34,444 nt of DNA from positions 1 through 34,444 of the forward strand of contig CALJDF010000049.1 of the NCBI GenBank assembly GCA_938023835.1, read 5' to 3'. Shown piece by piece: positions 27,140 through 31,642 of this stretch (its first letter is position 1; the number at the start of each line of letters is the position of its first letter). The DNA is from an uncultured Alphaproteobacteria bacterium. Its GTDB lineage: Bacteria > Pseudomonadota > Alphaproteobacteria > SHVP01. The notes under the pieces were generated by a model that was not told where the DNA came from, made no database searches, and saw nothing but the letters and a program-made list of their open reading frames with translations. Made by a program: the position numbers and the translations under genes.

Positions 27140-28573
27140 TCAGAGGGGCGATCGAGGCCTCCCCGGCGGTGTCGGAATCGCGAAATACTGGGCGAAGGAT
27201 TGGGTCTGGTAGGTCCAAAACCGCAATTCCGGCGACCAGTGCCGGGCTGGGAGGCCCGCTTTTCTCCAGAGATGGCCTAGAAAGGCACGCCCACTGGGGA
27301 GTTGCTGCCAGACCTGGGGTAAGAAGGTCGCCCGCTTGTCACCTTCGCGAACGATCAAACCGTCGATTCCGGGCCGCAGCGCTGCCAGCAATGCCTCTTC
27401 AGTGCTGGGGGAGACGGGGGTCGGCGCGCTCAGGATTGAGACCTCGAGCGCGTTCAATTGAGCGAAATCTTCTTCAATCACCGCCTGGAACCGCGGGTCG
27501 CGGAAGGCGGCGGCAAACGCATTCTCCGCGACATCGACGATGAGGGGGCGTTGCGCAACAAGCGAGCCGATACAGCCGCGCAACCGGTTCTTTTGTTTCA
27601 GCGTGACAAAACAGGCGCCCTCTTCGGCCAAGGGCGTGCCGTACCCCTGGGGGTTAATCGGGAAGGGTCGGCCGTGGTCGAGGCCATGCCGAATGGACTG
27701 CCCGGCGACGTGGAGCACGACATCTCGTTCGCCAAGGGAAAGCCCGTGCGTGCCGGGGTCTTGAAACCAGATCGACGCGTATCCGACCTCGCGGTCTTTA
27801 AATCCGGCGGTGTCGCCCGAGCTTCGATAGTCAATCAGAGTGGCCTTGAGACCGGCCGTGCGTGCGACCTCGATCAACCCCTTGATCGGCAACCGGCCAC
27901 ATGCGCCGGCGTCGGCGATGCCATTCGGATCGAGCCGTAGAATGGCATCAAGGGTTTGCTGGTCTAGTTGGTTGGCGCTTTCGTGATCCAAGTAGTGGCT
28001 GAGGTCGGAGCTGATCACAACGAGCGTCCCCGGTTCCGCCGTCATCACCCTGATGACATCGGCGACGTGTCCGGGTGTTGCACCGCCCACGATGAGAGGT
28101 ATGACGGAAAAGGCATCCAAACTGCGCTGCAAGAACGGCAATTGCACCTCGATGCAATGCTCGCCCGCGTGCGCATCATCCCGCACGGTGACCTGTTCCA
28201 ATGTGTTGAGTGTGGCGATCGCGTCGGTGTCGATCGGCACCGTTCCAAGCGGCGGTCGAAATGCCGCTGCGCTGGGGGCCGCCAAGCCTTGGAAAGCGAC
28301 GCGATGCGCGGGGCCTAATATCAGGACACGTTGGAACTGAGACCGGTAGCGGGCAAGGTATTGATAGGCCTGCGCCGCGGTTGGGCCCGAGTAGACGAAC
28401 CCGGCGTGGGGCGCGACGATCGCAAATGGGGGTCGGCTCGGGGCACGCTGACGGGCTTCGCGCGCCTCCGACAACAATCCCTCAACCGTCGCGCCAAGTT
28501 CCTGCCGGTCTGCCGGGTAGAAAAGCCCCGCGACGGCGGGCGGGCGGGTTTCGGTGCGGTTTACCTCGCTCAT
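27140..28573 (-). CDS. AmmeMemoRadiSam system fusion protein: Memo domain + AMMECR1 domain
   Basis: N-terminal Memo: PAVAGLFYPADRQELGATVEGLL, VAPHAGFVYSGPTAAQAYQYL, EHCIEVQLPFLQ, VVISSDLSHYLDHE; C-terminal AMMECR1: GACFVTLKQKNRLRGCIGSLVAQRPLIVDVAENAFAAAFRDPRF (LRGCIG hexamer), GIDGLIVREGDKRATFLPQVW. Confidence 0.95.
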   Translation of the reverse strand: MSEVNRTETRPPAVAGLFYPADRQELGATVEGLLSEAREARQRAPSRPPFAIVAPHAGFVYSGPTAAQAYQYLARYRSQFQRVLILGPAHRVAFQGLAAPSAAAFRPPLGTVPIDTDAIATLNTLEQVTVRDDAHAGEHCIEVQLPFLQRSLDAFSVIPLIVGGATPGHVADVIRVMTAEPGTLVVISSDLSHYLDHESANQLDQQTLDAILRLDPNGIADAGACGRLPIKGLIEVARTAGLKATLIDYRSSGDTAGFKDREVGYASIWFQDPGTHGLSLGERDVVLHVAGQSIRHGLDHGRPFPINPQGYGTPLAEEGACFVTLKQKNRLRGCIGSLVAQRPLIVDVAENAFAAAFRDPRFQAVIEEDFAQLNALEVSILSAPTPVSPSTEEALLAALRPGIDGLIVREGDKRATFLPQVWQQLPSGRAFLGHLWRKAGLPARHWSPELRFWTYQTQSFAQYFAIPTPPGRPRSPL

Positions 28574-28625: not shown

Positions 28626-29813
28626 ATGCCCGAACGGATCACGGAAAGCGTTCTCAACGCCCCCTCGACGGTAGAAGGACGTCATTGGGAGCGGCTCGAT
28701 GATGGCCGTTTTCAATGCAATGTTTGCCCGCGATTTTGTCGGCTTCATGAGGGGCAGCGGGGGCCCTGCTTTGTGCGGGCGGCCGGCCCGAACGGCATCG
28801 TGCTAACGAGCTACGGTCGGTCCAGCGGCTTTTGCGTCGACCCCATCGAGAAAAAGCCACTCAATCATTTTCTGCCCGGTTCCCCGGTCCTGTCTTTCGG
28901 GACGGCAGGGTGCAATTTGACGTGCAAGTTCTGCCAAAACTGGGACATGAGTAAGTCGCGGGAAATGGACACCCTGGCCGATGCCGCGTCGCCCGAGACA
29001 CTCGTCCGGGCGGCAACGGGAATAGGCTGCAGGTCTGTCGCCTTCACCTACAACGACCCCGTGATCTTTCTTGAATATGCCGTTGATGTTGCCGTGGCAT
29101 GCAGAGAGGCGGGCATAAAGCGGGTTGCCGTTTCGGCGGGGTACGTGACACCGCCCGCGCGCCAAGAGTTCTTTTCCGAGATCGACGCCGTCAATATCGA
29201 CCTCAAGGCGTTCACGGAGGACTTTTACCACTCGATATGCGGCGGTCATCTCGAGCCGGTGCTCGAAACACTTTTGTATCTCGTTCATGAAACGCCGGTC
29301 TGGACCGAAATCACGACATTGCTGATTCCCGGAGAGAACGACTCCGATGAAGGACTCAACAATATGCGCGGGTGGATTGCGGAGAATCTTGGCCCAAGCG
29401 TGCTGCTCCACTTTTCCGCTTTTCATCCCGACTGGAAGATGCCCGATCATCCACCAACGCCGCACGCGACCTTGATCCGTGCCCGCGCTATTGCGCAGGG
29501 TCACGGCTTGCACAACGTCTATCTCGGCAATGTTCATGATGCCGAGGGGTCAAGCACCTATTGCGCCGGGTGCGGCGCACGCCTCGTCGAACGCGATTGG
29601 TATCAATTGGGTGACTGGGGCCTCGACGCGCACGGGCGCTGTCTAAAGTGCGGCGAAGAAATGGCTGGTGTTATCGATGGCCCACCGGGCACGTGGGGTC
29701 GGCGGCGCCTTCCGGTTCGTCTGAAAGATTTTGAGCCGGGCGGGCGAAAGCACAACCAGCCGATCGACCGAAGCGCCGCGCTGCGCACGCCGACGCGTCG
29801 CCGAACGCCCTAG
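28626..29813 (+). CDS. AmmeMemoRadiSam system radical SAM enzyme
   Basis: GTAGCNLTCKFCQNWDMSKSREMD (CxxxCxxC radical SAM cluster motif), CNVCPRFCRLHEGQRGPC N-terminal Cys motif, C-terminal zinc-ribbon-like YCAGCGARL...GRCLKCGEEM. Confidence 0.95.
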   Translation: MPERITESVLNAPSTVEGRHWERLDDGRFQCNVCPRFCRLHEGQRGPCFVRAAGPNGIVLTSYGRSSGFCVDPIEKKPLNHFLPGSPVLSFGTAGCNLTCKFCQNWDMSKSREMDTLADAASPETLVRAATGIGCRSVAFTYNDPVIFLEYAVDVAVACREAGIKRVAVSAGYVTPPARQEFFSEIDAVNIDLKAFTEDFYHSICGGHLEPVLETLLYLVHETPVWTEITTLLIPGENDSDEGLNNMRGWIAENLGPSVLLHFSAFHPDWKMPDHPPTPHATLIRARAIAQGHGLHNVYLGNVHDAEGSSTYCAGCGARLVERDWYQLGDWGLDAHGRCLKCGEEMAGVIDGPPGTWGRRRLPVRLKDFEPGGRKHNQPIDRSAALRTPTRRRTP

Positions 29814-30481
29814 CCGTCCGCGTGCCGCGAAGACCCACGCCGCGCTGCTTGGCGTGCTTCCTCGCGCTGTCGGTAGGCCGCTTTGACGGCCTCCCGCCGC
29901 AATTGCGCATCTTGGACGCGTTCGCCGCGCCATAGACCGTTCACGCGTCGTAAGTATCCCTCTGCCCGATGCGGGGTGGCGGAGTGATAGCGGCCGATTG
30001 CGCGGTTCCAAGAACGAGATGTACGAAAGAGCTTCTTCAAAAACGTGGCGGCATAGTCGGCGTTGGCCGCGGGGTCGAAGGCTTCGGACAGATCCGCGAA
30101 GGCGTCGGGGTGGAAGTGAAGGTTAACTTGCATGCAGCCAACGTCGATGTTGCGCACGCCGCGGGCCTGGAGAACACGAACCGCGGCGATCGCCGCTGCT
30201 TTATCGGCGTAATAGTGCGAGCCTGCGCCCGATGTCACCGTCCACGGCCAGGGATAACTCCGGCGCTGCGTGGGGTGCCAGCGCCCGCTCTCCGCCAAGG
30301 AGATTGCTGAGAGCACGAATTTGGGAAGCCGGTGACGTTTTTCGGCCTCGCGCGTTTGGGCACGGCAAATCTGACCCACCGATGGCGAGAACGCTGTATC
30401 GCTTGCCGCTACCGGCGCATTGACAATCCCTACAAAACCAAGGGCTGCGAGGAAAAGGGCGGCGAGGCGGCGCGGCATCAT
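29810..30481 (-). CDS. Lytic transglycosylase SLT-domain protein
   Basis: Signal peptide MMPRRLAALFLAALGFVGIVNAPVAAS; ICRAQTREAEKRHRLPKFVLSAISLAESGRWHP...VRNIDVGCMQVNLHFHPDAFADLSEAFDPAANADYAATFLKKLF. ATG 30481 has an upstream GGAG; the ORF can extend to 30511. Confidence 0.9.
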   Translation of the reverse strand: MMPRRLAALFLAALGFVGIVNAPVAASDTAFSPSVGQICRAQTREAEKRHRLPKFVLSAISLAESGRWHPTQRRSYPWPWTVTSGAGSHYYADKAAAIAAVRVLQARGVRNIDVGCMQVNLHFHPDAFADLSEAFDPAANADYAATFLKKLFRTSRSWNRAIGRYHSATPHRAEGYLRRVNGLWRGERVQDAQLRREAVKAAYRQREEARQAARRGSSRHADG

Positions 30482-30592
30482 CGGTTTCTCCGTGATCGAC
30501 ATACCGGACAAAATGCGAACCGCGTGCCAACGTCACGATGTGGCCAAAATATCACTAGTGTCGCTAATCTGCGCCAGTCGGGCTTTATTCGT

Positions 30593-30621
30593 TTGGGCGG
30601 ATTTAGGGCTAGCCACTATAT
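30593..30621 (+). promoter_or_regulatory. Candidate housekeeping-sigma promoter for the sRNA
   Basis: TTGGGC (30593-30598) - N17 - CTATAT (30616-30621), close to the alphaproteobacterial pattern CTTGAC-N17-CTATAT. Confidence 0.5.
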
Positions 30622-30627
30622 GTAGTG

Positions 30628-30722
30628 TGTGGCATCGCAGTCTCATGCCTACGATGCCGAATACCCTTTCTGGGTATTTCCTCCCTAAACTCGGGCCCTC
30701 CTGAAAAGGTGGGCCCCTTTTT
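30628..30722 (+). ncRNA. Candidate trans-acting small RNA with three hairpins and a CCUCCC motif (possibly suhB/mmgR-like)
   Basis: Promoter-like box upstream; hairpin 1 GGCATCG(30631-30637)/CGATGCC(30652-30658); hairpin 2 AATACCC(30660-30666)-TTTCT-GGGTATT(30672-30678); unpaired TCCTCCCTAAACTC; intrinsic terminator. No plausible ORF. Confidence 0.65.
30693..30722 (+). terminator. Rho-independent terminator
   Basis: GGGCCC(30693-30698) T CCT-GAAA-AGG T GGGCCC(30711-30716), then C and TTTTT (30718-30722). Confidence 0.85.
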
Positions 30723-30730
30723 CGTCAGGG

Positions 30731-31642
30731 CTATTGCGCTGCGTCGGCGTAGACCTGCGGCGGGGCCCGCAGTCGGCTCGGGTCAACCTTGGTCAGGTCC
30801 GCCATGAATTCGGCCAAGTTCTCGGTCAGGGTTGCCATCTTCGGCACGCGCGAGATCGAAGCTTCGTCCATGTACAGCCCGCGGTTGATCTCGATCTGAA
30901 GGGCATGAATACCGCTATTGGGCCGCCCGTAATTTTGAGTGACGAAGCCGCCCGCATAGGGATCGTTGCGCGCCACCGAATACCCGCGCTCGGTTAGGCC
31001 AGCCTCGAACAAATCCAAAATCGCGGGATCGCAACTGGTACCGAAGCGATCCCCCAGCACGAAATCACACCGCCGCCGCCCCGAGTTCCCCTCGATCGCC
31101 GTACCCATCGAGGGCATCGAATGGCAATCAACCAGGACAACGGCACCGAACTTGGCGCGGGTGGCAACAAGAAGCTGTTTGATCATCGCGTGATAGGGGA
31201 AATAAAGCCGGTCAATGCGTTTCTCAACCTCGGCAAAGTCCAGCTTCCGGCGATAGATTTCGGCGCCGTTGCTCACCACCCGCGCGATGGTTCCGAGACC
31301 AACGGATACGCGCGCGGAGCGTGAATTGACAAAGCTCGGCAGCGGGCCGTTGAACATCTTGGGGTCGAGTTCGTACGGCTCGCGGTTCGGATCGAGATAC
31401 GCCCGCGGGAACCGTGCCCGGATGAGCGGCGCGCCAAGCCTCGGGGCGTCGCGGAAAAGCTCGTGCACGAAGCAGTCCTCCGAGCGACGGATCGCGGTCG
31501 CATCGAGCCGTGATTGAGCGAGAAATTCCGCGTCATAGTCATCGCCCGAATGGGGCGAAGCAAAAACGAAGGGCAGCGTCTGCACGCCTGGTTTTGTCAG
31601 GACGTAGGCGTCGTTTTCGAGGCTCTCCGGCGGCGCGGTCAT
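30731..31642 (-). CDS. N-formylglutamate amidohydrolase family protein
   Basis: LPFVFASPHSGDDYDAEFLAQSRLDATAIRRSEDCFVHELF...VVLVDCHSMPSMG...FVTQNYGRPNSGIHALQIEINRGLYMDE. Confidence 0.93.
   Translation of the reverse strand: MTAPPESLENDAYVLTKPGVQTLPFVFASPHSGDDYDAEFLAQSRLDATAIRRSEDCFVHELFRDAPRLGAPLIRARFPRAYLDPNREPYELDPKMFNGPLPSFVNSRSARVSVGLGTIARVVSNGAEIYRRKLDFAEVEKRIDRLYFPYHAMIKQLLVATRAKFGAVVLVDCHSMPSMGTAIEGNSGRRRCDFVLGDRFGTSCDPAILDLFEAGLTERGYSVARNDPYAGGFVTQNYGRPNSGIHALQIEINRGLYMDEASISRVPKMATLTENLAEFMADLTKVDPSRLRAPPQVYADAAQ

Follow-up and report, generated by a model that had tools for sequence, protein, structure and literature searches.

The 34,444-nt stretch of DNA analysed here (hereafter, the window) almost certainly encodes, on its + strand, an orthologue of the αR8 trans-encoded sRNAs (suhB/mmgR in Rfam), at a locus of the same type as Caulobacter sisA. 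A cmscan search of the whole window returned RF00519 (suhB, mmgR) as the sole sRNA match, which covered 30656-30730 (+) and the full model (positions 1-77). It scored 52.7 bits (gathering score, 41 bits), with an E-value of 2.9e-8 over 34 kb. The 10-mer UUUCCUCCCU was found after the second hairpin and a terminator at the 3′ end of the RNA, both of which are features of αR8 members. The anti-hemB family of Burkholderia, RF02837, has a CCUCCCU stretch and a terminator in common with the present RNA; with 20.3 bits, far short of the 49.5-bit cut-off, the RNA is not a member of that family.

A previous sequence-only reading had suggested a resemblance to suhB/mmgR (αr8), and this resemblance was real, given the RF00519 match over the gathering score, the UUUCCUCCCU 10-mer, and the linkage to a gene for an N-formylglutamate amidohydrolase-like protein (FGase). 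The same reading was right about the family but overestimated the novelty: "unannotated" overstates the case for an RNA of a curated family whose members MmgR and SisA have been characterised by experiment. The sRNA is a bona fide new orthologue of this known and experimentally studied family at its usual place, that is, an expected gene of low surprise. It confirms a curated sRNA at its canonical locus in a poorly known, uncultured lineage and does not change the knowledge about the αR8 family itself. The great majority of FGase relatives belonged to alphaproteobacterial genomes and MAGs; the nearest one was in a MAG labelled only 'Proteobacteria'. We infer that the host would be an alphaproteobacterium, as αR8 membership requires.

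Anatomy of the predicted transcript

A putative sigma-70-like promoter was read from the sequence at 30593-30621 (+), with the −35 element TTGGGC (30593-30598), a 17-nt spacer, and the −10 element CTATAT (30616-30621). The −10 element was invariant in 9/9 aligned genomes of the taxonomic family, and the −35 element was variable. With the 5′ end placed from the −10 element, the predicted transcript was approximately 95 nt (~30628-30722, +), which agrees with the length estimated before. A generic scan under strict sigma-70 and short-loop rules listed neither a promoter nor a terminator for the sRNA; hence, the argument for these two elements is their conservation in related genomes.

Folding of the RNA at 30625-30725 yielded a minimum free energy (MFE) of −42.1 kcal/mol and exactly the three hairpins named in the sequence-only reading. 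The mean of 200 shuffled sequences was −24.3 ± 2.6 kcal/mol (z = −6.79), and none of the 200 was as good as the sRNA. Hairpin 1, at the 5′ side (30631-30658, +), is formed by GGCATCG (30631-30637) and CGATGCC (30652-30658) and lies mostly outside the Rfam model. Hairpin 2 (30660-30678, +), seen in both the fold and the alignment, is formed by AATACCC (30660-30666) and GGGTATT (30672-30678). The conserved 10-mer UUUCCUCCCU, read as TTTCCTCCCT, is located at 30677-30686 (+) and corresponds to the anti-Shine-Dalgarno seed validated in Caulobacter SisA (PMC12559287). It had been described as unpaired, which holds for CCUCCCUAAACUC but not for UUU; as the latter is within the 3′ arm of hairpin 2, only CCUCCCUAAACUC is wholly unpaired in the MFE structure. 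The intrinsic terminator (30693-30722, +) consists of GGGCCC (30693-30698) paired with GGGCCC (30711-30716) and U5 (30718-30722), as had been proposed, except that one C intervenes between the stem and U5. The coordinates that had been given for the promoter, the three hairpins, the UUUCCUCCCU segment, and the terminator were correct base by base.

Genomic setting and conservation

The sRNA lies between two genes that are both on the − strand, as had been noted. The FGase gene (30731-31642, −; Pfam PF05013, E 3.6e-78) is convergent with the sRNA, and its stop codon is 8 nt from the U-tract; the SLT transglycosylase-like gene (29810-30511, −; PF01464, 24.2 bits against a cut-off of 21.3) is divergent from it. 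In most species, a single αR8 copy is located beside an FGase gene, Caulobacter sisA being an example (PMC12559287). This reported linkage, together with the adjacency observed here, identifies the present site as the canonical αR8 locus. Among 31 loci recruited by Rfam matches, which include the window locus and a sub-threshold copy from its own genome, an FGase relative was present in 22 and an SLT relative in 15. Elsewhere in the window, an AMMECR1-Memo fusion gene (27140-28573, −) is found beside an AmmeMemoRadiSam radical SAM gene (28626-29813, +; TIGR04337, 607 bits), and the two constitute the three-part AmmeMemoRadiSam system, whose function is unknown.

RF00519 matches over the cut-off were detected in 31 of 60 related genomes; within the taxonomic family to which the window belongs, the only genome that lacked one was an 83% complete assembly. 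Alignment of nine genomes of this family showed two invariant cores, TACCC-T-TCTGGGTA (TACCC..GGGTA) and TTCCTCCCTAAACT, and UUCCUCCCU of the seed was invariant in 9/9 relatives. In hairpin 1, double compensatory changes were observed in 7/7 pairs, with 98.4% of cells paired; in hairpin 2, five of the seven pairs were invariant. The whole-structure covariation score of the nine genomes was reached by no shuffle, and the signal was lost when the partners were slid.

A covariance model, R1, was built from the nine genomes, the window sequence being one of them, and matched the window at 30626-30727 with 114.4 bits. R1 was then applied to 80 loci selected solely for encoding a relative of the neighbouring FGase: 54 of them gave 56 matches (two loci had two copies), every one convergent with FGase. 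TTCCTCCCT was likewise present in 54/80 of these loci on the FGase-convergent strand and in 0/80 on the opposite strand. In a control with 60 other loci of the window's own genome, R1 gave no matches at E up to 1. In the 56 wider homologues, hairpin 1 again covaried in 7/7 pairs (93.9% paired) and the terminator stem showed double changes in 6/6 pairs, although these counts lean towards the model to which the alignment was fitted. The sequence-only reading had made its case dependent on conservation and covariation of the hairpins in related genomes, and the nine-genome alignment, the hairpin covariation, and the matches at FGase loci all spoke in its favour. The covariation shows that the 5′ hairpin is kept as a structure. 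The 77-position RF00519 model starts at 30656 here, omitting most of this hairpin despite its covariation in the 56 FGase-linked homologues, and could be extended.

Two adjacent αR8 RNA copies beside FGase were observed in each of two MAGs, one from Beijerinckiaceae (L139:2181-2528) and one from Acetobacteraceae (L123:2280-2563). One locus titled Bacillus subtilis strain SK6B4 (L085) had the same FGase match values as that of Pseudochrobactrum (L086), with TTCCTCCCT at the same position; this assembly is probably mislabelled or contaminated.

In the window's own genome (a 2.53-Mb draft in 303 contigs, 87% complete), RF00519 matched the window copy over the cut-off and one sub-threshold candidate on the minus strand (C74:606-680, 30.9 bits). 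The latter carries an anti-Shine-Dalgarno-type GTCTCCCAGACGTTAAGCCTCCCTGTTAAACTTG and a strong terminator (locus L002), was not matched by R1, and recurs with the same flanks in a sister genome (G001, L178). Either a divergent paralogue of αR8 or a distinct sRNA that has not been described before may be present there.

Mode of action and candidate targets

From homology, a sigma-70-type promoter of its own would drive transcription of the sRNA, which would stop at its own terminator, and its 3′ U-tail would presumably be bound by Hfq; an Hfq gene is present in the genome (PF17209, E 1.1e-32). The exposed UUUCCUCCCU would pair with purine-rich, AGGGAGGAAA-like ribosome-binding sites of several mRNAs, and by analogy with the studied homologues such pairing would cover the site and block translation. 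In Caulobacter, SisA uses the same 10-mer to pair ahead of the start codon in the mRNA for a TonB-dependent receptor, which it represses; compensatory point mutations proved this pairing, and SisA is itself sponged by CrfA (PMC12559287). We therefore regard anti-Shine-Dalgarno repression as the likely mechanism of the present RNA. The genes predicted to be repressed would be those for uptake and peripheral catabolism, a target set that we put forward with some doubt.

Other explanations of the locus were also considered. Chance hairpins with a spurious family match, and no functional RNA, would fit the empty result of the strict promoter and terminator scan. Against this explanation are the Rfam E-value, the constant placement and orientation at 54 of the 80 FGase-selected loci, and the covariation of all hairpin 1 pairs, which already contradicts chance; its probability is next to nil. 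Alternatively, the sRNA might mainly be a cis-acting or 3′-end element of the convergent FGase gene, controlling FGase mRNA through terminator read-through or a shared hairpin. Such a role would agree with the mere 8 nt between the U-tract and the FGase stop codon and with a linkage that is held over wide distances and always convergent; ancestry alone, however, can account for the linkage. On the reverse strand, the stem is not followed by a good U-run, αR8 paralogues are found away from FGase in other genomes (related-genome search; PMC12559287), and SisA acts in trans by validated pairing. A mainly cis-acting role is thus very unlikely. We also consider it very unlikely that the sRNA mainly titrates, or is titrated by, another sRNA. 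The CrfA-SisA sponge pair of Caulobacter (PMC12559287) is a documented precedent, but the perfect complement of the 10-mer, AGGGAGGAAA, was found in the 87% complete assembly solely opposite the sRNA and at one ribosome-binding site; since it occurs at only those two places, no perfect-match sponge of the CrfA type is visible in this draft genome.

To return to repression at ribosome-binding sites, targets were searched by sequence patterns on the draft assembly of 303 contigs. Many genes should show Shine-Dalgarno complementarity by chance alone, and target lists of this kind are therefore weak. The single AGGGAGGAAA site apart from the sRNA lies directly before an ATG, and the gene behind it encodes an Asp/Glu-racemase/EutA-like protein that is distantly related to arylmalonate decarboxylase and EutA and does not reach the equivalog cut-offs of NCBIfam. 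The pattern GGGAGGA-N3-9-ATG occurred 52 times, compared with five times for the reversed pattern, an excess that is expected for ribosome-binding sites. Twenty-two genes behind GGGAGGA sites were readable, and 20 of them had a Pfam match. They included solute-binding proteins, isochorismatases, zinc dehydrogenases, FAD/FMN oxidoreductases, glyoxalases, hydrolases, and racemases. None of the 22 appeared to be housekeeping, compared with 7/15 control genes with AAGGAGH sites (fructose bisphosphatase, release factor, Glx-tRNA synthetase, PdxJ, PNPOx, hibernation factor, and DUF934); the difference (Fisher p = 0.0006) is no more than suggestive, as it was seen in small sets whose classes were assigned by the analyst after seeing the gene names. 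The almost wholly catabolic or transport character of the GGGAGGA genes is consistent with, and does not prove, an uptake and catabolism regulon; catabolic operons might favour GGGAGGA sites for unrelated reasons. The short predicted list could be set against the Caulobacter SisA regulon. We only tentatively entertain the broader proposal, itself rather unlikely, that the sRNA is a group switch for GGGAGGA-type genes of uptake and peripheral catabolism and, at the same time, that the covarying 5′ hairpin is functional in FGase-linked αR8 RNAs and not a variable leader.

The link to phasins and polyhydroxybutyrate (PHB) known from S. meliloti was considered and rejected. A phasin gene is present, and its ribosome-binding site AAGAGGACGTTATG pairs with the sRNA over only five bases (GAGGA, −7.3 kcal/mol); in the window's own genome, the search for a PhaC domain gave a PhaC_N match below the cut-off only. 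Given this short match and no PhaC domain over the cut-off, the role in granules may not apply to the present sRNA.

Comparison with MmgR and SisA

MmgR of Sinorhizobium meliloti (αr8) shares with the present sRNA the Rfam family RF00519, the UUUCCUCCCU core, and three stem-loops. According to reviews, MmgR is Hfq-dependent, limits PHB accumulation, and affects phasins (PMC7143759; PMC8401924), and an Hfq gene is also present here. The two RNAs differ in length, MmgR being 77 nt and the present transcript approximately 95 nt by prediction. They also differ in that the NtrC/AniA regulation of MmgR has no counterpart evidence for the window sRNA, and in the poor phasin match and lack of a clear PhaC described above.

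The likeness to SisA of Caulobacter crescentus (αR8) extends to the locus. The differences are that no CrfA-like perfect-match sponge was seen in the window's own genome and that this genome has one copy over the Rfam cut-off and one divergent candidate, compared with four siblings in Caulobacter. On the other hand, both sRNAs are located downstream of and adjoining an FGase gene, have an identical 10-mer seed, and share the order of weak hairpin, seed, and terminator (PMC12559287).
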